Shown: piece by piece, positions 20,560 through 32,110 of the stretch
Layout: each line of letters begins with the position of its first letter
Position numbering within the stretch: the first letter of the stretch is position 1
NCBI RefSeq assembly: GCF_020438995.1
Contig: NZ_JAGQTN010000038.1
Location: 1-32,110 of the forward strand
Source of the DNA: Gordonia sp. (in: high G+C Gram-positive bacteria)
Lineage (GTDB): Bacteria > Actinomycetota > Actinomycetes > Mycobacteriales > Mycobacteriaceae
Length of the DNA: 32,110 nucleotides
Direction of reading: 5' to 3'
The notes under the pieces: model-generated
What the model was told of the DNA's origin: nothing
Databases searched by the model: none
The model's input: only the letters and a program-made list of their open reading frames with translations
Program-made: the position numbers and the translations under genes

Positions 20560-21416
20560 TCAGTCGAATACGTCGCCGATCTCGCCGGCGGTGGCCGACC
20601 GACTCAGCCACGTCTGGAGCAAATCGAGATCGTCGCAACCACGCACGCGGTCACGCACCACCTCGGGCACCTCGATCCCCCTCGCTTCGAGGACGGTCAG
20701 AACAGCAACGACCGCTTCCTCGGTTCTGCCTTTGGCTTCTCCATCACCGAAGTGCTTCCGGGCAAATGGGGATTGATGCTTCCATGTTGTCGTTGTCATC
20801 AGCCGCTCCCAGCGCACGCGGGCGGCTCCCGAAAGTACCGCCCAGATCAGTTCAGAATACACGTAGCCATGCTCGGAATCAGTGGCGATCGTGGCCGCCA
20901 AAGCTTCCAAAACCCCAGGTACATCGTAGTGTGCCATCGCCGACAGCATCGCCAGCTCCACACTTGACCGGGCCTGTTCGACGTCATCGACAACCGGGAC
21001 GACTTTTGGTCCCACCACGATCGGGGTGATCACCGATGCCCGCCCGATCGGTATCGGCTGTGCGCCCAGCGCGCCACACCGTCATCGACACACACCACTA
21101 ACAACTCGACCGGGCAACGCAGCCGTTGACGCAGCGAAATCACGTAACTCGGCCACGTGTACGACTTATCGCCGTCACGACCCAACTGCACCTCGACGAC
21201 GATCCCCAGGACCGCACCACCGTCCCGATCGTTGAGTGTGACCACAGCATCGGCACGCCGCTCGGTCGGCACCACTTCACTCAGATCGGCTGACCCGACC
21301 TCCGCCGACTCGTACCCGGGCACAACAACATCCGATATCCCGGTCAGCATCTCCACCGCGAACTCAGGACACAACCGAATCAACTCAACGATCGCCTCAT
21401 GCCGAATCGACACCAT
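20560..21416 (-). pseudogene. Rpn-like PD-(D/E)XK nuclease, copy A, frameshifted
   Basis: Homologous along its length to the intact copy B (30323-31189). The 5' part keeps the nuclease core (ERRADAVVTL, then GIVVEVQLG) and ends in a wrong frame after VARWA. The 3' part resumes at VITPIVVGPKVVP and runs to the normal end GEIGDVFD. Compared with copy B, one base is missing just after the codons for VARW (about 21073-21077), and restoring it rejoins the frames. The two fragments now overlap as GTGA (21030-21033), so the C-terminal part could be re-initiated. ATG 21416 is chosen because TATCCT, a good -10, ends 7 bases before it as in copy B, suggesting a leaderless transcript. The glycine/lysine/glutamate repeat tract before the C-terminus is shorter here (GDGEAKGRTEE). 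Confidence 0.8.
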
Positions 21417-21527
21417 ACCCGTGAGGATAGGCGGCACCTACGACATCGACCCGAACCCGCAGATGCCGTGACCCGCCGCCACAGGGCGTCGTAAGGTGGG
21501 CGATTGTCACGTATCCGAGGAGAGTGC

Positions 21528-23279: not shown

Positions 23280-23312
23280 TATGAGCGGCGTATGCTCGGG
23301 GTATGAAACGGC
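23280..23312 (+). promoter_or_regulatory. Three 11-base imperfect direct repeats at the vapB start
   Basis: TATGAGCGGCG (23280-23290), TATGCTCGGGG (23291-23301) and TATGAAACGGC (23302-23312) follow each other with exact 11-base phase; the third contains the vapB ATG. GAGC and GCTC in the first two also form an inverted pair. TATGCT could serve as a -10. One-turn phasing suits binding of a VapB-type antitoxin dimer series for autoregulation. Confidence 0.45.
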
Positions 23313-23548
23313 TGACGATCAGCGTTCCGGACGAAGTCGCCGCGAAGGCGCAACGCGCTGTCGACGCGGGCGACGCAGACAGCGTCAGCGGCTATTTTGT
23401 GCAGCTCGCGGAGGCTGAACCGGACTGGGTGCAGGCCAGGGCGGCCGTCGATGACATGATTGCCGACACTGACGGCATCACGGACGCCGACCGTGACGCC
23501 GTTCGGCGCGAACTCGGCCTACCTTCCGATGTCACAGGCGTCGCGTGA
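23303..23548 (+). CDS. vapB: VapB-like antitoxin
   Basis: An 81-residue antitoxin. The N-terminal KRLTISVPDEVAAKAQRAVD is a ribbon-helix-helix DNA-binding segment. The acidic C-terminal part (ADTDGITDADRDAVRRELGL) would wrap the toxin. The stop overlaps the vapC GTG as GTGA, so the pair is translationally coupled. Phased 11-base repeats overlap its start and probably mediate autorepression. Confidence 0.85.
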   Translation: MKRLTISVPDEVAAKAQRAVDAGDADSVSGYFVQLAEAEPDWVQARAAVDDMIADTDGITDADRDAVRRELGLPSDVTGVA

Positions 23549-23919
23549 GTGTCGTCTTCGATACCGGCGCCCTGATCGCCCTCGAACGCCGCGACCGGCT
23601 CATGGTGGCACGAGTCGATGAGATTGTGCGCAATCGTATCGCCACTTTCGTTCCCGCAGGGGTCGTTGCCCAGTGCTGGCGCGGAGGTCATCGTCAGTAC
23701 GCGATCGCTCGGCTACTCAGATCACGAGCAGTCCGGATCGATGACCTCGGCGGCGAACTCGCCTTCCGGATCGGGATACGGCTTGCCGAAACCGGCACGT
23801 CCGATGTCATCGACGCCCACGTAGCGCTCCTCGCCGCTCGGCTGAACGCGATTGTCTACACCAGTGACCCCGACGATATCGCCGTACTCGACCCATCCCT
23901 ACGGATCGTCACGGTGTAG
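23545..23919 (+). CDS. vapC: VapC-like PIN-domain toxin ribonuclease
   Basis: A 124-residue PIN-domain endoribonuclease toxin. The acidic metal-binding residues are in place: Asp6 (VVFDTGALIALERRD, with Glu14 nearby), Asp87/Asp90 (GTSDVIDAHVALLA) and Asp108 (VYTSDPDDIAVL). Length and motif spacing are normal, so the toxin appears intact. VapC toxins cut tRNA or rRNA when the labile antitoxin is lost. It starts at the GTG overlapping the vapB stop. Its stop codon is followed in the same frame by the remnant of an XRE-type antitoxin. Confidence 0.88.
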   Translation: MSVVFDTGALIALERRDRLMVARVDEIVRNRIATFVPAGVVAQCWRGGHRQYAIARLLRSRAVRIDDLGGELAFRIGIRLAETGTSDVIDAHVALLAARLNAIVYTSDPDDIAVLDPSLRIVTV

Positions 23920-24235: not shown

Positions 24236-24586
24236 TCATTCACTCAGCACAATTTGCTTGCCGCCAAAATGTACTATTACCGTACCAATCGCCAGAAGTG
24301 CTAGCACCCCAACATTCCCGGTATCAACGACTTCTACTAGCCCCCAGAATAGAGCGACAGCCCCCACTCCCAAAGTGAACCCTGTGTGATCAGTCCGCGT
24401 GGTTGCTGTCCAGCAAACGGATGCAATACAAATGGTGACTGTAATTCCTATAAATATGTCAAGAGCATTAAACTCGCCCGGCCCACTTGCGCCGACCGCA
24501 AACCCTATGAGCTGTACGGCGCAGCCGACAGCAGAAATTGCAAGGCCGCGGCTTCTGAGAGTTTCTGACGTGGTAGATGGTTTCAT
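24236..24586 (-). CDS. Small four-helix membrane protein, last gene of the FtsK-like operon
   Basis: A 116-residue protein with four hydrophobic segments: about 13-33 (GLAISAVGCAVQLIGFAVGA), 42-60 (LDIFIGITVTICIASVCW), 69-88 (GFTLGVGAVALFWGLVEVV) and 91-107 (NVGVLALLAIGTVIVHF). The start is supported by AAAGGA upstream of the ATG. Base composition is clearly lower in GC than the rest of the window, a sign of foreign origin. It follows the WXG100-like gene by 59 bases on the same strand and may be part of that module, for example as a membrane or immunity component, but it could also be an independent gene. No family recognised. Confidence 0.72.
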   Translation of the reverse strand: MKPSTTSETLRSRGLAISAVGCAVQLIGFAVGASGPGEFNALDIFIGITVTICIASVCWTATTRTDHTGFTLGVGAVALFWGLVEVVDTGNVGVLALLAIGTVIVHFGGKQIVLSE

Positions 24587-24645
24587 GTGCAGTGTCCTTT
24601 CGGCAAGAAATCCGATGTTCTGGTGGCCAATACGCTCCTCCTATG

Positions 24646-24909
24646 TCATCGCCCCAGGTAGGTTCTCAGTTCACCGGCTTTGCGGTTGAGCATGCGTTGG
24701 CTGTCGTTGCTGACGTTGTCGATTTGCTTCGCCATTCGGGCGATTGCTTCGAGGTTCTGTTCGAGTTCCCGGCGGACCGGGTCGTTCCATTTGGTGGCGT
24801 TGAGGGTGGAACGAACTTTACGGATCGCTTCCTCGATGGAGCTGCTCGCCCTTTTCAACTCGCGACCCATCGCGACCAGCGCTTCGGGATCGGTCTCGAT
24901 TCTTGTCAT
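24646..24909 (-). CDS. WXG100-like small helical protein
   Basis: An 87-residue protein predicted to form a helical hairpin. Helix 1 runs from about residue 8 to 38 (DPEALVAMGRELKRASSSIE, then EAIRKVRSTL), the turn is KWND with Trp41, and helix 2 runs from about 46 to 84 (RRELEQNLEAIARMAKQIDN onward). Length, helix layout and Trp position match WXG100 proteins such as EsxA/EsxB, but the W-x-G turn reads W-N-D. It lies 11 bases after the 74-residue gene and downstream of an EccC/FtsK-like ATPase, the usual partner of WXG100 proteins. The homology is inferred from pattern and context. Confidence 0.72.
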   Translation of the reverse strand: MTRIETDPEALVAMGRELKRASSSIEEAIRKVRSTLNATKWNDPVRRELEQNLEAIARMAKQIDNVSNDSQRMLNRKAGELRTYLGR

Positions 24910-24920
24910 GGTTCTTCCCC

Positions 24921-25145
24921 TTATATGTTGGTCGTTCCGAGGTACTTCTTCGCCTCATCGAATGAGGCGTTCAGGGCGGCGAGGGCGGCGCCGTATGTCT
25001 TGTCCTGCCCCTCGATGGTGTTGAGGACGTCGAGGAACTTGCGGGCAGCCGCGTCCGACCACAACGACTCGACGCGCAGCCGTGCCCGGAATCGTTCGGC
25101 ACGGTCGGACTCGTGTTGGGCGATGTCGCGCGAAACTCTACTCAC
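24921..25145 (-). CDS. Small helical protein with W-S-D turn, possible WXG-like partner
   Basis: A 74-residue protein starting at a GTG that overlaps the stop of the ParB-like gene (GTGA). Helix 1 is charged (DIAQHESDRAERFRARLRVE), Trp29 sits in LWSDAAARKFLDVL, and helix 2 ends AALNASFDEAKKYLG. The W-S-D followed by a conserved-looking aromatic (Phe37) resembles the turn of WXG100-like proteins, with a shortened first helix. It is presumably a partner of the 87-residue protein directly downstream, as EsxA/EsxB-like genes come in pairs. Not recognised as a named family. Confidence 0.68.
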   Translation of the reverse strand: MSRVSRDIAQHESDRAERFRARLRVESLWSDAAARKFLDVLNTIEGQDKTYGAALAALNASFDEAKKYLGTTNI

Positions 25146-26116
25146 TGTGGTCCGACGATCCGCACCGGAATTTCGGTGGCTCCCAAGCGCTCGAGCAGCC
25201 ACAACCGGTGGCGGCCGTTGTCGAGGTCGAACCCCTCCGGCCCGAGATGACTCACTTTGAGTGCGGTGTCGGAGAAGAATCCGCTGTAGCTCCGCATGTA
25301 GGTCCGAGCGCCGGACAGCCCTTCTCGCTGATCGCGTTCACGGAGCGTAGCCCGTGGGTCACCGCTGCGCATCGCTGGTAGCAGGACGTCGAGAAGCGCG
25401 TTCGTCGACCACTTGAGCGTCGGTAGATCCTGCCCTTTGTCGAATGACTCGGGGCCGCTGATCGGGTCGGAGTTGCGGATCAGCGATACCGGTACCAGCG
25501 CGAATCCGTCGGGGAAACCGGCAGGAATCGTCACGCCGGGAGTATCCCGCCATGACGCAGGAGCACTCGCGTCGCCGGTACCGTTGCTGTAGCAGTCCGG
25601 CGACGCCGCGGAACTCGCCGCAACGCTTCCGGCTGACCAGCTACCACCACCACCGGATGCCGCGCCGGACAGCAACGTGACGTGCGGACCGCTGATGGTT
25701 GCCTTCACATAGCCCGAGATGCGTTCGTCGGCCTCGCGGACGAGCTTCTCGCTGCGGACGAGTTCTTCGTCGATCACCCGATCGTGCCGCGCCTGCGAAT
25801 GTCGGAACTGCGCGGTAGCCTGCTCGATGATCCGCTGACCTTTGAGCGCGTCTGCCAGCGCGTTCCCGGCCAACTCCAGTTGCCGGGCGTATCCGCTGCA
25901 GTCGGAATTCTCCTGGGCTCTGCAGGCATCGAGATCGGCCCTACACTTTTCGACGGCGCGGCGACGTTCTCTGACGACCTCCGCCGCGGTCTCCGATGCC
26001 TTGGCGATCGAGCGGGCAACCGCGGCTTTGAGATCGGTGGTTTGCCGGCGGTATCGCCGGAGTTGCGGACGCAGAAAGTCGAAGACCGCGCTGTCGACCT
26101 TCGCCCCGCTACTCAT
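25142..26116 (-). CDS. Coiled-coil protein with C-terminal ParB-like motif
   Basis: A 324-residue protein. Residues 10-150 are long charged helices with three spaced cysteines (Cys58, Cys65, Cys73). A Gly/Ser/Ala-rich linker covers about 160-195. The C-terminal part ends with LDNGRHRLWLLERLGATEIP, the D-G-x-H-R motif of the ParB/sulfiredoxin fold, here close to the C-terminus. ATG 26116 overlaps the ATPase stop by 8 bases; an upstream in-frame start would intrude further. The layout (helical N-terminus, low-complexity linker, possible nuclease or NTPase tip) resembles T7SS-type effectors, but a structural or DNA-binding role is equally possible. Translational coupling with genes on both sides argues that it belongs to the module. 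Confidence 0.72.
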   Translation of the reverse strand: MSSGAKVDSAVFDFLRPQLRRYRRQTTDLKAAVARSIAKASETAAEVVRERRRAVEKCRADLDACRAQENSDCSGYARQLELAGNALADALKGQRIIEQATAQFRHSQARHDRVIDEELVRSEKLVREADERISGYVKATISGPHVTLLSGAASGGGGSWSAGSVAASSAASPDCYSNGTGDASAPASWRDTPGVTIPAGFPDGFALVPVSLIRNSDPISGPESFDKGQDLPTLKWSTNALLDVLLPAMRSGDPRATLRERDQREGLSGARTYMRSYSGFFSDTALKVSHLGPEGFDLDNGRHRLWLLERLGATEIPVRIVGPQ

Positions 26117-29100
26117 GGCGCAGGCCCGCGATCCATCCGGTCGGTGGCGCACCGAAGCGACGGACCTTGACCGATGTGGAACGGTCGACGTCGGCGACGA
26201 TCACCTGCCCACTCTTGAGGGTGGCCGCATCGGAGTTGTCGATCAACTGCGTCGAATCGTCGCGTCCCATCGGCCCGATCACCCGCAGCCCGCACTCATC
26301 GATGTGGTTGGAGCCGAGACGTTTACGAATACCGCCGGGATTGTCGAACCAGATGATCACGTGGACACCCACTTCGGGACCGTCGGTCAGGATCCTGGCG
26401 AGGATCTTTCCGGGATCATCGTCGTCGTACGAATTGGGGTCGAAGTCACGGGCCCGCGCCATACCGGCGATGACGAGCACCCGTGTGGGCTCCCGCATCG
26501 AATCCGTGGCGTGTCTGGTGTCGACGGTCTTGGCCACTTCCTCAAGCAGTGCCCGCATACCTCGTCGGCGTTCGACGGTCACGCCCGGCACGTATTCCAG
26601 GTCTTCGACCACGGGCGACCAGTCGTCGTGATCGGTTTCGTAGTCGATCAGGTCGACCGGCACACCGCGCAGTGTCAGGCTCGCAAGGAGTACCCCGAGG
26701 GTGCCCGCCCCGTGCTCGTCGACTATCAGCAGGTTGCTGCCGGCGGTGCGTTTGAACTGTGCGCGATACGGCTCGGCGTCCAGGATAAGGGGTTGTCCGA
26801 GCGGCAGGTCCAGACGTTTCGGGTCGGTATCGGGCTGCCCGAGAGTTGCTCGGGAAAGTCCTCCGACCTCGGCGTCGCTGTGTCCGTCGAAGACCGCCGT
26901 GTTGTCGGTGAATCCGTCGTGTTCGGCACGTTTGGCCAATTGCTTCAGAATCTCGCCGCGTGCCTCCGCAGACCACAGGGCTGCTTGGAAACGACGATTC
27001 GCGTCGCGCTGCCCGCTCCGGCAGTTGATGATTCCCTCACCCGCCCGTGACAGGGTCTGTGCGTCGGCGTTGTCGTCACCCAGGATAAGCCGGGAATCGG
27101 ATTCGTTACTCTGCAAAGCAATCCGAACGGGCATGAGTCCGATGACATGTTTGCCGAGCGCCGCCATACCCGCCAGCGACTGGGAGGCCAGCACGATGTG
27201 GACGCCGAAGGCGCGACCTTTGCGCAGCAGATCTTCGAGAACTTCGGCCGCCTGTTGGGCGATCTTGTCGTCACTGGTGAACAGTTGCTGGAACTCGTCG
27301 ATGATGACGACGTAGCGTGGCAGCGCATGTCCGGTGAGTTTTCGGTAGTCGCTGATCTTGGCCGGCTGCTCACCCTTGGGACCGGTAACCCCCTTGAAGA
27401 GCTTGCTACGCCTCTGATATTCGAGCTGCGCCCGCACCAGAATCGATAGGCCGAAGTCACGTTCGGCCTCGATGGCGACCAAACGGGCCTGCGGCATTCC
27501 GAGATCGGCGTACTGCTTGAACTCGACTCCCTCTTTGAAGTCGACCAAGTACAGTTCGAGTTCGGCAGGGGAGTACGTCACCCCAAGGCTCATTATCACC
27601 GCGTGGATGAGGACCGACTTGCCCGAACCGGGTCGTCCGCCGATCAGTGCACCGTAGTTGTGCGTCTCGGAATTGATCATCAGGTCGGCGGTCTGCCGCG
27701 CACCGATACGGCCGAAGTGCGCCGTCACGTCGTCGGTACTGTTTCCCTGCCACCACGTTTCGGGACGATCGAGGCCCGGGGTGCGCGCCAGGTACGCGGT
27801 CCGGTTCGTCGTGGCGGTCTCCCGCTCCTGTTGCGCCGCGAGTTCGAATACCCGAGCCGGGGTGACCACGACATCCTCAGCGTTGCTGATTCCTCGCTTG
27901 ACGGCATCAAGCAATTCTCTGGCGACCGCGTCGGAGGGTGGCGCGGCCGGAGTGTATATCCAGCGAATTATTCCTTCGCTGACCGTCCCCGCCAATCCGT
28001 TCACCGGTGGTGCGGGGATGGTATGCGGAAGCCGGACACCGCCACCAGCCGACTCCAACTTATTCCGACAATTCTCAGTGAGCCAGTCCCCGGCGTGCAG
28101 GTGCGGCACAGACGAGGTCACCCGCAATAGAGCACGTGTTCCATCGTCCGCTCCCTCGGGTTCGGGACCAGGATTCTCCATCTCATTGGATACGAGGATG
28201 GTGAACACCCCGGTGCGCGGACCATTCTGGATGATCCGTCCGAGGCGATCGAGTTGATCGACATCATGGTGTCCGGCGCGGGAGAATCCGGCGGGGAAGT
28301 CGTACAGGATGATGATCCGGTACGGCTCGGCAACCTCGCCCGCCGCGTTGTTGTAGTCGGTCAGTGAACTGTGCTCACCCTGCAGGTAGCGCTGAGTGAC
28401 GAAGGTGATATGTTCCTCGGTCTCCTGGAGCAATTCATCGAGTTGTCTCGGACTGGTCCGCACCGACTGCCCGATGACCTTTTCCTGAGCTTCGCCGAGG
28501 CCGTACAGGAAGTTCGCCGACTCGCCTGCCTTCTCAGGGTCGAACACCCGGATCAGCAACTGGTTCGCGGGAAGCGCGGCGAGCAGGTTCAGGACCGCTG
28601 TCTCGATTCCGCTGGGGGTGTTGATGAGGAATGAACCGAGTCGATCCAAGTCGACGACAACCGGAAGTTCGACCTCACTGAACTGTTCGCTATGAACGTC
28701 TGCTTCAACGCATTGCAGGAATTCATCGATACCGGCGGTACTGGCGAATTTCATCATCATATACAGGATATGAAAGGCGGCGGGGTAGCCAACGTGGCTT
28801 TCTGCGGCCGCGTCAAGTCGATGGAACTCGCTATCTTTCATGTGGCGACGACGATCCCGATTCCAAACGTTGAACTGCTGGAAATCGTAGCCGGTGATCG
28901 TGATATCGCGAATGCTAGTCGATGAGTAGACCAGTGTCGCTTGCAGAGTTCCGAGAAAGATATTCAAAGGCCCAAGTCCGGAAACTATCGTATCTGCCGA
29001 GCCGCTAACAGGTGGTCCGACCGGTGGCCATGGCATGGTCAAGTGAGATCGGATGAAGTTTTCTTGTCGATAAAACCTGGTTGCCTGCTTGCCGTCGTCG

Positions 29101-29678
29101 TCCATCTGCTTCCACACGGTGACGATTAGCTCACTTACGGTCGGAAAGAAGGAACTGGTCAACGACCGGACCGAGTGCGCGAACTCCGCCTTGAGTCTTT
29201 CTCGACCGCTGGAGGTCCACGGCACACGGGCGGCTTCAATCTGGTGACGCAGTTCGTGAGCAGCTGAGATCCATTGGTTCGCGGTCCTCGCTCCGTCACC
29301 GCTGTCGGGGAATCCAGTGCCGCCGCCGAGGTGGTCGCGGAAAGCTTCACCAAGGGACTCGCGAGCTTTAAAGAGGGACAGGAGGATAGCTGTGAGGTCA
29401 GGATGTGCAGCTGCGTGGGCGGAAAGTATTGCGTGTGACTGATTTCCGACCGCGGCCTCGATCTCGTGCCAGATCGGTCGTAGCTTGGTCAATTGATCGT
29501 CGACGACGAGAAGGGAGGGTCGGTGTGCCTGATCGAGGGAGCCGTGACGTTGCTCGGTGGAGAGTTGTATCGATTGTGTCGCAGCACGCGAGGACTGAGC
29601 GCTCGCCTGGGAGTGCTTTCCCTGCAGCGCAGACTGCGGGTCGCTATGACCAACTAAATTTCGGGGGGGGGGTCGCAC
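26109..29678 (-). CDS. FtsK/EccC-like triple-ATPase protein, start region with C10 tract
   Basis: About 1,190 residues, no membrane helix. After a helical N-terminal region come three ATPase-like domains of the FtsK/HerA superfamily. Domain 1 is degenerate (about 330-480: LLIRVFDPEKAG, YRIIILYDFPAGF). Domain 2 is intact (about 660-900: Walker A GGRPGSGKS near 685, LYLVDFKEGVEFKQYADL, Walker B YVVIIDEFQQLF near 793, IVLASQSLAG). Domain 3 is degenerate (about 970-1180: NLLIVDEHGAG, RVLVIAGMARA). Triple tandem ATPase domains are the hallmark of EccC of type VII secretion, but EccC has N-terminal membrane helices and normally an active first domain. The longest frame begins at a GTG without a good ribosome binding site. 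The better start is ATG 29706, behind GGAAGGGAGGATCGCCG, which is one base out of frame because of ten C residues (29663-29672). First gene of the operon. Confidence 0.88.
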   Translation of the reverse strand: MRPPPRNLVGHSDPQSALQGKHSQASAQSSRAATQSIQLSTEQRHGSLDQAHRPSLLVVDDQLTKLRPIWHEIEAAVGNQSHAILSAHAAAHPDLTAILLSLFKARESLGEAFRDHLGGGTGFPDSGDGARTANQWISAAHELRHQIEAARVPWTSSGRERLKAEFAHSVRSLTSSFFPTVSELIVTVWKQMDDDGKQATRFYRQENFIRSHLTMPWPPVGPPVSGSADTIVSGLGPLNIFLGTLQATLVYSSTSIRDITITGYDFQQFNVWNRDRRRHMKDSEFHRLDAAAESHVGYPAAFHILYMMMKFASTAGIDEFLQCVEADVHSEQFSEVELPVVVDLDRLGSFLINTPSGIETAVLNLLAALPANQLLIRVFDPEKAGESANFLYGLGEAQEKVIGQSVRTSPRQLDELLQETEEHITFVTQRYLQGEHSSLTDYNNAAGEVAEPYRIIILYDFPAGFSRAGHHDVDQLDRLGRIIQNGPRTGVFTILVSNEMENPGPEPEGADDGTRALLRVTSSVPHLHAGDWLTENCRNKLESAGGGVRLPHTIPAPPVNGLAGTVSEGIIRWIYTPAAPPSDAVARELLDAVKRGISNAEDVVVTPARVFELAAQQERETATTNRTAYLARTPGLDRPETWWQGNSTDDVTAHFGRIGARQTADLMINSETHNYGALIGGRPGSGKSVLIHAVIMSLGVTYSPAELELYLVDFKEGVEFKQYADLGMPQARLVAIEAERDFGLSILVRAQLEYQRRSKLFKGVTGPKGEQPAKISDYRKLTGHALPRYVVIIDEFQQLFTSDDKIAQQAAEVLEDLLRKGRAFGVHIVLASQSLAGMAALGKHVIGLMPVRIALQSNESDSRLILGDDNADAQTLSRAGEGIINCRSGQRDANRRFQAALWSAEARGEILKQLAKRAEHDGFTDNTAVFDGHSDAEVGGLSRATLGQPDTDPKRLDLPLGQPLILDAEPYRAQFKRTAGSNLLIVDEHGAGTLGVLLASLTLRGVPVDLIDYETDHDDWSPVVEDLEYVPGVTVERRRGMRALLEEVAKTVDTRHATDSMREPTRVLVIAGMARARDFDPNSYDDDDPGKILARILTDGPEVGVHVIIWFDNPGGIRKRLGSNHIDECGLRVIGPMGRDDSTQLIDNSDAATLKSGQVIVADVDRSTSVKVRRFGAPPTGWIAGLRHE
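29663..29672 (-). repeat. Homopolymer of ten C at the start of the FtsK-like gene
   Basis: Ten consecutive G on the plus strand (C on the coding strand). From ATG 29706 the frame reads MAIDYTRRDRATPPP, leaves the ATPase frame at this tract and stops at TAG 29646-29644. With nine (or twelve) C the same ATG would read straight into the ATPase. Confidence 0.95.
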
Positions 29679-29706
29679 GATCCCGCCGCGTGTAGTCGAT
29701 CGCCAT

Positions 29707-30322: not shown

Positions 30323-31189
30323 TCAGTCGAAGACGTCGCCGATAGTCTCCGCTGTGGCAGCCCGGCTTAGCCACATCTCGAGCGTGTCAAGATCCCCACA
30401 GTGCTGCACCCTGTCGCGGATAGCATCGGGCACATCGATACCTCGGGCTCGAAGTACAGTCAGGACACCGGCCGCTGCCTCTTCGGCCTTACCTTCAGCT
30501 TTGCCCTCGGCTTTGCCTTCGCCGTAGTATTTCCGGGCGAAGGGTGATTGGTACTCCCAGGTCGTAGCAGTCACAAGTCGCTCCCATTTGGCTCGGGCGG
30601 TCCCTGAGAGCACCGCCCAGATCAGTTCAGAATACACATGGCCATGCTCGAAATCTGCGGCGATCGCAGCCGCCAACGCCTCCAAAACCCCAGGTACGGC
30701 GTAGTGCGCCGTCGCCGACAGCATCGCCAGCTCCCGGCTCGTTGCCGCGATATTGGCATCATCGATCACCGGAACTACCTTCGGTCCGATCACGATTGGG
30801 GTGATCACCGATCCGCGTCCGATCTGGATCGGTTGTGCTGCCCAGCGCGCCACGCTGTCATCGACGCACACCACCAGCACTTCGACCGGGCACCGCAGTC
30901 GCTGCCGCAGCGAGATGACGTAGCTGGGCCAGGAGTACGTTTTGTCGCTGTCGTGACCCAACTGGACTTCGACGACGATCCCCAGGACCGCGCGACTGTC
31001 CTGATTGAGTGTGACCACCGCATCGGCACGCCGCTCGGTCGGCACCACCTCACTGAGATCGGGAGAGCCGAGCTCCGCCGACTCATACTCGGGCACAACA
31101 AGATCGGCGACTCCGGCGAGCATCTCGGCTGCGAATGCCGGACATAATCGGATCAACTCGACGATCGCCTCGTGGCGCATCGAAACCAT
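30323..31189 (-). CDS. Rpn-like PD-(D/E)XK nuclease family protein, copy B (intact)
   Basis: A 288-residue protein of the family of actinobacterial Rpn-like putative nucleases, often annotated as transposase-related. Core acidic residues are Asp56 (ERRADAVV) and Glu74-x-Gln76 (IVVEVQLG), the E-x-Q variant of PD-(D/E)XK. The middle (WPSYVISLRQRLRCPVEVLV) completes the fold. A linker with GKAE repeated three times precedes the C-terminal helical tail RARGIDVPDAIRDRVQ to TIGDVFD. Rpn proteins of E. coli promote RecA-independent recombination and act in phage defence with small C-terminal variants. ATG 31189 is chosen: TATGCT ends 7 bases upstream, matching a leaderless promoter shared with copy A. 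A longer start at 31201 is possible. The gene's upstream block interrupts a PIN-toxin gene. Confidence 0.82.
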   Translation of the reverse strand: MVSMRHEAIVELIRLCPAFAAEMLAGVADLVVPEYESAELGSPDLSEVVPTERRADAVVTLNQDSRAVLGIVVEVQLGHDSDKTYSWPSYVISLRQRLRCPVEVLVVCVDDSVARWAAQPIQIGRGSVITPIVIGPKVVPVIDDANIAATSRELAMLSATAHYAVPGVLEALAAAIAADFEHGHVYSELIWAVLSGTARAKWERLVTATTWEYQSPFARKYYGEGKAEGKAEGKAEEAAAGVLTVLRARGIDVPDAIRDRVQHCGDLDTLEMWLSRAATAETIGDVFD

Positions 31190-31219
31190 ACCGGCGAGCA
31201 TAGGAGGTGCCTACGACAT

Positions 31220-31631: not shown

Positions 31632-32110
31632 TCAGTCGAAGACGTCGCCGATCGTCTGCGCGGTGGCGGCGCGGCGCAGCCATGTTTCGAGCTGCTCGAT
31701 GTCGTCACAGCTCTGCACGCGCTCACGTACCGCGTCGGGAACGTCGATACCGCGGGCGTGGAGCACGGTCAGGATGCCGGCAGCCTCGCCTTCGGCCTTC
31801 CCCTCGCCGTAGTACTTCCTGGCGAAGGGCGATTGATACTCCCAGGTCGTAGCAGTCACAAGTCGCTCCCATTTCGCTCGGGCAGCCCCTGAAAGCACCG
31901 CCCAGATCAGTTCAGAATACACATGGCCGTGCTCGAAGTCCGTGGCGATCGCAGCCGCCAACGCCTCCAAAACCTCAGGTACGGCGTAGTGCGCCATTGC
32001 CGACAGCATCGCCAGCTCCCGGCTTGATGCCGCGACATCGGCATCATCGATCACCGGAACGAGATTCGGTCCGACCACGATCGGGGTGATCATCGACCCG
32101 CGTCCGATCT
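31632..32110 (-). CDS. Rpn-like PD-(D/E)XK nuclease family protein, copy C, 5' part outside the window
   Basis: The C-terminal 159 codons of a third copy, closely similar to copy B (MITPIVVGPNLVPVIDDADV, then ELIWAVLSGAARAKWERLVT). The frame is open to the last base (IGRGS before MITP), so the nuclease core lies beyond the window edge. The GKAE repeat tract is short here (GEGKAEGEAAG). Same strand as copy B, 1.3 kb apart, with the antitoxin between. Confidence 0.8.
   Translation of the reverse strand, partial: IGRGSMITPIVVGPNLVPVIDDADVAASSRELAMLSAMAHYAVPEVLEALAAAIATDFEHGHVYSELIWAVLSGAARAKWERLVTATTWEYQSPFARKYYGEGKAEGEAAGILTVLHARGIDVPDAVRERVQSCDDIEQLETWLRRAATAQTIGDVFD

Follow-up and report, generated by a model that had tools for sequence, protein, structure and literature searches.

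A four-gene cassette of an EccC-like ATPase, a ParB-like carrier and two W-x-D proteins in Gordonia: a candidate stripped-down type VII-like export machine

We have analysed the 32,110-nucleotide contig NZ_JAGQTN010000038.1 of Gordonia sp. (hereafter the window; contig C176 in full, from a draft genome of 4.8 Mb), which carries on its minus strand a cassette encoding an EccC/FtsK-like ATPase (the motor), a predicted helical protein with a ParB/sulfiredoxin-like C-terminal domain (the carrier) and two small proteins, S74 and S87. We propose, with a probability of roughly 55%, that the cassette is a stripped-down type VII-like export machine and that the ParB/sulfiredoxin-like domain is its payload in the window. 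The gene set, its co-conservation, the families and motifs, the differing carrier ends and one nuclease-immunity pair were obtained by computation, and the folds by structure prediction. An initial annotation of this DNA had suggested a "reduced T7SS-like device" (T7SS, type VII secretion system) with a ParB-like effector; the complete gene sets and the nuclease with its immunity gene in a relative's carrier slot, described below, make this the best reading of the evidence across the family.

Five minus-strand open reading frames (ORFs) had been described together with their overlaps and gaps, and our own reading of the frames confirmed them at 24236-29678 of the window. Motor and carrier overlap by 8 bases and carrier and S74 by 4 bases; 11 bases separate S74 from S87, and 59 bases separate S87 from a small membrane ORF. 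Four of the five constitute the conserved cassette:

26109..29678, minus strand: EccC/FtsK-like motor; N-terminal helical region and three FtsK-type domains (PF01580, E 7.6e-19)
27615..27638, minus strand: Walker A of the middle motor domain, GRPGSGKS, residues 681-688 (pattern scan)
27294..27299, minus strand: Walker B acidic pair D794/E795 (alignment with relatives)
25142..26116, minus strand: carrier (CC), 324 residues; predicted long helices, linker and alpha/beta C-terminal domain
25145..25561, minus strand: predicted ParB/sulfiredoxin-like C-terminal domain of the carrier, the likely payload (structure prediction and Foldseek)
25205..25219, minus strand: NGRHR motif of the carrier (motif alignment)
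24921..25145, minus strand: S74, small partner of 74 residues with an invariant W-x-D (W29, D31)
25053..25061, minus strand: W-S-D turn of S74 (alignment)
24646..24909, minus strand: S87, WXG100-superfamily protein of 87 residues with an invariant W-x-D (W41, D43)
24781..24789, minus strand: W-N-D turn of S87 (alignment)

The locus survey covered the best 80 of 559 motor relatives together with the window, 81 loci in all, and is biased, since these loci also supplied the training sequences for the profiles of the small proteins and the carrier. S87, carrier, S74 and ATPase are all present in 62 of the 81, one of which (L054) was counted as complete despite two genes between the partners and the motor. 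Among the incomplete loci, 11 are cut by a contig edge on the partner side and five further ones (L047, L050, L055, L068, L070) are either fragments or incomplete at an edge. The last three (L073, L081, L094) lack some or all partners nearby, and each of their genomes has S87 elsewhere: with carrier and S74 in the L081 genome, with a carrier in the L094 genome, and alone within the 3.3 kb seen in the L073 genome. The earlier claim that the small genes accompany the ATPase stands for these loci (62 complete, 16 cut or fragmentary, 3 split) and fails for two more distant motors, considered below. Gene order is S87-carrier-S74-motor in the planctomycete-verrucomicrobial loci and motor-carrier-S74-S87 in most actinobacterial ones, with exceptions such as L020, L024 and L040. 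Mobility is indicated by motor relatives on plasmids (five records), of which one was typed as conjugative and another as mobilizable; a phage collection contributed one match, L116, which carries no annotation.

In the motor, a helical N-terminal region precedes domains of FtsK type at about residues 325-610, 640-925 and 950-1186. The P-loop pattern occurs in the middle domain only, and that this is the one active ATPase domain is judged from the P-loop alone. Across 30 aligned motor relatives, E795 is invariant and D794 nearly so. The best Foldseek match of the motor is EccC over 930 columns (E 1.4e-27), and NCBIfam EssC/EccC models match it far under their equivalog cut-offs (99.7 against 778.4 bits and 92 against 509.15 bits). 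The pattern scan, the Foldseek match and the KD19 values given below agree with the annotation of an EccC-like three-domain ATPase lacking membrane helices, with its P-loop in the middle domain.

The W-N-D and W-S-D turns ascribed to the two small proteins were found again in our alignments, where W-x-D replaces the W-x-G of WXG100 proteins in 44 of 44 S87 and 40 of 40 S74 members. More widely, W-x-D occurs in 127 of 128 small ORFs adjoining a carrier at 65 loci, the exception being a partly masked stored sequence in L020. Pfam WXG100 (PF06013) matches all 44 S87 members at E<=0.01 (best 2.4e-12), the window copy at E 0.0015 with a score below the gathering cut-off, and the closest solved relatives of S87 are Helicobacter pylori HP0062 (W-R-D) and then EsxB/EsxA. 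On its sequence, S87 is assigned to the WXG100 superfamily, its turn being W-x-D and not W-x-G. S74 matches PF06013 in only 3 of 40 cases; the window S74 is recovered by its own iterated profile (E 2.5e-6), and many of its counterparts by the iterated S87 profile as well. At the S87 position W-x-D is retained in the more distant plasmid relatives L111, L114 and L115; at the S74 position it is missing from L111 and L114. One of the 44 S87 proteins matches LXG (PF04740, E 1.5e-4).

Structure prediction of the carrier gave helices at residues 9-67 and 74-142, a disordered linker at 143-185 and an alpha/beta domain at 186-324 (mean pLDDT 81.3, pTM 0.43). When this C-terminal domain was searched with Foldseek, 26 of the top 27 rows were ParB, Noc, KorB, SbnI or sulfiredoxin, mostly with probability 1.00. 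A [NSD]GxHR pattern is present in 33 of 33 ParB-type carriers, a label given on the basis of alignment or of kinship in the database, while six others lack it; the available part of a polymorphic-toxin paper reports a DGHHR motif for ParB-type toxin domains. The VIA-align rows for the carrier spanned its long helices only and were rejected as evidence of kinship. As a separate observation, the Tyr that ends the second carrier helix (alignment A5, L041 residue 157) is the only residue invariant among 20 long carriers with different C-termini. A 194-residue database protein on an 817 kb contig (P0127) is a shortened relative of the window carrier in which neither end matches, and is likely a decaying copy.

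The C-terminal carrier domain is exchanged between lineages on a related N-terminal part. ParB-like ends are found in most actinobacterial carriers (L016 and L019 excepted), in some proteobacteria and in one Chloroflexota member. On a Helicobacter plasmid (L111), the carrier, placed by gene order and shape since its carrier-profile match was not significant, ends in a WHH nuclease (PF14414, E 1.1e-11) and is directly followed by a SMI1/KNR4 (SUKH) gene scoring above cut-off. Because nuclease and immunity genes stand together in this cassette, its sequence supports a putative weapon function. Four further carriers were labelled nuclease-like from short motifs judged by eye and not from a family model: L114, on a Caballeronia plasmid, with a D..EVK end followed by a 113-residue gene; L028, with a CxxC/DH/CxxC/Q end followed by a 99-residue gene; and L021 and L127, with a VESK end. 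The available part of PMC3482391 lists CxxC/DH/CxxC/Q as the signature of NGO1392-like nucleases. L127 (1501-3139) is the second cassette of the L028 genome, which therefore holds two carrier ends. An Imm33-like end is carried by L041 and L044 above cut-off and weakly by L092; this immunity-type domain is unexplained if carriers are toxins. The alignment search for carriers returned 45 proteins, all ParB-type, Imm33-type or unlabelled, so our picture of the carrier ends comes from few loci.

Several published systems resemble the cassette closely. We refer to PMC3482391, PMC4978471 and PMC11090510 by first-author names that we take to be Zhang, Uchiyama and Bell. As far as the available text goes, a Table 1 footnote in Zhang 2012 (PMC3482391) describes "Solo WXG" with a three-domain YueA-like ATPase as mobile T7SS versions. 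These share with our cassette a WXG protein and a distinct ATPase whose middle domain alone is active, and planctomycetes and verrucomicrobia are listed there. Accessible sections of Bell 2024 (PMC11090510) describe, within Type III-A CoCoNuT operons, an EssC-like ATPase accompanied by two WXG100 proteins, by a nuclease fused to a coiled coil and by a DNA mimic. The likeness extends to three ATPase domains with the middle one active, two small WXG100-type proteins, a coiled coil-effector and a motor without a membrane helix. As described there, that cassette has a D-ExK nuclease followed by the DNA-mimic protein, and one of its small proteins keeps W-x-G, whereas the window has a ParB-like end and W-x-D in both small proteins. 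We recognised neither CoCoNuT nor TerY-P genes in the window, and no DNA-mimic or immunity gene follows its carrier, which S74 overlaps by 4 bases. The Caballeronia locus fits the Bell 2024 description of Type III-A CoCoNuT extensions.

In H. pylori, a WxG protein with FtsK was called a minimal T7SS by Uchiyama 2016 (PMC4978471), citing Anantharaman 2012. From what could be seen of PMC4978471 and PMC3397514, HP0062 of the HP0062/HP0066 region forms a hairpin dimer with W-R-D and its gene lies close to that of an FtsK-type protein, and the groups named include "FtsK/SpoIIIE family, nuclease of HNH/ENDO VII superfamily" and "WXG100 secretion system". That region differs in having an HNH nuclease instead of ParB, and a TerD fusion is not described in those portions. 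The part of PMC4978471 at hand also reports a group of genes that includes a DnaK homolog and WxG100. EccC-like motors stand beside Hsp70-type genes at L113 (1752-8622; Hsp70, TPR and GrpE), a Rhodococcus plasmid with a related motor and no clear carrier, and at L110 (1-5252; DnaK- and DnaJ-like by eye); with the H. pylori group, these neighbours suggest a recurring link between the motor and Hsp70-type genes.

The canonical T7SSa/ESX and T7SSb systems likewise combine an EccC-like motor with a WXG100-type partner; the window differs from them in W-x-D in place of W-x-G, the rarity of the export arm, the absence of adjoining EccB/EccD and a motor without a membrane helix. LXG toxins, in the accessible portion of PMC9600955, need two small WXG100-like proteins, Lap1 and Lap2, for export, and offer a parallel in their helical carrier domain, variable C-terminus and two small targeting factors. 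In the cassette, by contrast, the window carrier and 10 other carriers tested gave no LXG (PF04740) match at E<=1, FxxxD is not conserved, and the motor gene lies inside the cassette. PMC11217815 names T7SSc-j, and its main text contains no occurrence of planctomyc, TerD or ParB. The cassette is not described in the parts of PMC3935865 and PMC7159879 available to us, PMC6806547 matched through strain names only, and our literature search found no description of a WXG100/ParB/TerD-FtsK cassette, Anantharaman 2012 being represented through citing papers. The initial annotation had asked whether the family was already a characterised system. The stand-alone EssC-like ATPase/WXG100 cassette as a type is already in print (PMC3482391, PMC11090510), and the present variant is not in what we saw of these papers; new here are the W-x-D pair, the putative ParB-like payload, the survey across phyla and the motors fused to TerD.

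By analogy with LXG toxins that need two small WXG100-like proteins (accessible part of PMC9600955), we hypothesize that the S87 and S74 pair would clasp the predicted helical hairpin of the carrier and then present it to the motor. The C-terminal domain of the carrier would be the exported payload, toxic or regulatory. Since the window motor has no membrane helices, another protein would have to provide membrane docking, perhaps the product of the downstream membrane ORF or host ESX parts encoded on other contigs. Complex formation, export as opposed to intracellular action, and toxicity of the ParB-like end are the steps of this model that we infer.

A number of observations weigh against the proposal of a type VII-like export machine with a ParB-like payload. 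The more distant motors G089 and G330 have no partner nearby at E<=0.01. The window motor has no membrane helix (maximum KD19 1.31), and EccB and EccD are not beside it but elsewhere in the genome, on contigs other than the window. Few of the small proteins have the type VII export arm [YF]xxx[DE] within their final 30 residues (1 of 44 S87, 4 of 40 S74). The best Foldseek E of the ParB-like end is 5.9e-3, none passing 0.001, and Pfam gave no ParB match for the window carrier. Carriers are at most 231 residues long in 50 of 65 cases, a length that would leave little room beyond the hairpin. Unlike fast-changing toxins, the database relatives close to the window carrier have the same end in 11 of 12 cases, the twelfth being truncated. 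No dedicated immunity gene was recognised in the window or in the ParB-type cassettes (11 loci), where the S74 gene abuts the carrier in 10 of 11, the gap in L054 being about 230 bases; and a gene in the immunity slot is absent from two of the five nuclease-like carriers (L021 and L127).

The shared end in close relatives, the lack of a recognised immunity gene and the soluble motor make the evidence weaker for the ParB-type branch, and intracellular action is a serious rival. According to this rival, which we consider unlikely overall, the cassette is an intracellular conflict device, anti-phage or stress-related, in which the soluble motor senses or moves DNA or protein, infection triggers the release of a ParB- or nuclease-type effector by the pair and carrier, and TerD/TerY-type parts signal. 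It gains from the missing membrane helix and from the resemblance of the middle motor domain to FtsK- and HerA-type folds, and is strengthened by linked TerD genes and by the gene company of the Caballeronia locus. TerD was found in 20 of 120 listed motor homologues, and a TerD gene lies beside L107. The conjugative Rhodococcus plasmid L112 (6549-15664) encodes a TerD-fused motor, a ParB-type carrier and the two small proteins, along with free-standing TerD genes, and on the mobilizable Caballeronia plasmid L114 (1880-13434) the cassette lies between VWA genes in the company of CARF, PP2C, kinase and AAA genes. The similar cassette inside Type III-A CoCoNuT operons (Bell 2024, PMC11090510, as far as accessible) points the same way.

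Other observations speak against an intracellular device. KD19 reaches at least 1.6, a membrane-type hydrophobic stretch, in 55 of 63 planctomycete-verrucomicrobial motors and in 2 of 10 others, a tally that omits 8 of the 81 loci with too short an N-terminal part, and export roles are known for WXG100-type partners (PMC11217815 and PMC9600955, in the parts available). The flanks of the planctomycete and verrucomicrobial copies look housekeeping by eye (aldehyde dehydrogenases, cysteine desulfurases, gyrase, HtpG and similar). Flank genes were called with a codon-usage scorer trained per motor; 134 immediate neighbours were then judged by eye from their first 60 residues, without a profile search, and no recurring defence family was seen among them. 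Small gene clusters do recur at these flanks, for example cluster c5 of about 480-610 residues at 6 loci. In PADLOC, the motor ATPase domain matches mad8, SspH and HerA; of the four non-motor proteins only S87 matched anything (Cas1, E 0.012, chance level), and no system-specific partner gene was found. The general defence-island setting of the initial annotation was rejected on the housekeeping-like flanks and on PADLOC matches limited to the ATPase domain and that one chance-level hit, and its alternative of a DNA-translocating defence system found no known defence partner in PADLOC.

The motor is patchily distributed: in two phyla it occurs in 27 of 195 and in 8 of 193 genomes. G585 and G586, the centre genomes, are counted in these tallies, and G583 is counted in the second as well. 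In the window's family the motor was found in 7 of 201 genomes, of which only four (G000, G052, G031, G089) match most of the three-domain part, and in its phylum in 10 of 396, again with only four such matches (G000, G052, G330, G373); the G373 contig stops inside the motor gene. This patchiness argues against a core function and hence against a non-toxic envelope or regulatory system, in which the motor would export or assemble the carrier hairpin and the ParB- and Imm33-like ends would be modulators. The Helicobacter WHH nuclease carrier with its SUKH gene and the other nuclease-like ends also disfavour such a system, which we regard as improbable.

Canonical FtsK, EccB, EccC and EccD are present in the source genome, all on contigs other than the window. 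EccB, EccC and EccD there would permit the cassette to be a substrate module plugging into the host's ordinary ESX system. Against this stand the cassette's own motor, with its membrane-type stretch in most planctomycete-verrucomicrobial cases, and relatives in phyla without a known ESX. To our knowledge, ESX is not known in some of the phyla that hold cassette relatives, EccB not having been searched for there. We regard a plug-in substrate module as very improbable.

The export-machine proposal can be widened to a self-contained "type VII without ESX" system spread over at least six phyla and built from a W-x-D pair, a motor of its own and a hairpin carrier whose ends can be swapped. In the branch seen in the window, a ParB/sulfiredoxin-fold effector would go with a soluble, sometimes TerD-fused motor, and the system would export, or fire inside the cell, without a known membrane channel. 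We put this wider version forward tentatively, at clearly less than even odds.

Two further features concern the ends of the gene group:

24236..24586, minus strand: hydrophobic protein of 116 residues; not conserved, at most accessory
29663..29672, minus strand: run of ten C separating an ATG at 29706 from the motor frame

The fifth gene had been counted in the module, and the survey did not support its conservation. None of the 81 loci holds a relative of the membrane ORF; a weak look-alike occupies the same slot in L106 of genome G052 (pairwise E 1e-7). In the family, 3 of 201 genomes match it at E<=0.001 outside the window, as parts of ORFs of 514-538 residues, and G052 is absent from these matches despite the look-alike. 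Similarity to EccD (E 0.013-0.03) stayed under the cut-off. At most, the membrane ORF is an optional accessory. At the opposite end, the motor ORF is open from a GTG at 29678 and the ATG at 29706 lies in a different frame; database relatives that share the motor's first residues have one intact frame there, and the ten-C run is possibly a variable tract or an assembly error.

Elsewhere in the window, 20560-21437, 30323-31201 and 31632-32093 appear by eye to be three copies of one family, the first split over two ORFs. These had been called Rpn-like nucleases; Pfam gave no nuclease match for any of the three. A two-gene unit at 23303-23919 on the plus strand, whose second gene has a PIN domain above the Pfam cut-off, is likely a VapBC-type toxin-antitoxin pair.

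If the export-machine proposal is true, type VII-like transport needs four proteins only, namely a motor, a clasp pair and a carrier. The cassette would then be a tractable model of how EccC-type motors select and move folded hairpin cargo, a question that is open for ESX, and such transport would extend to Gram-negative phyla, for example planctomycetes and verrucomicrobia. The W-x-D pair is a simple signature by which further cassettes and their payloads may be located.

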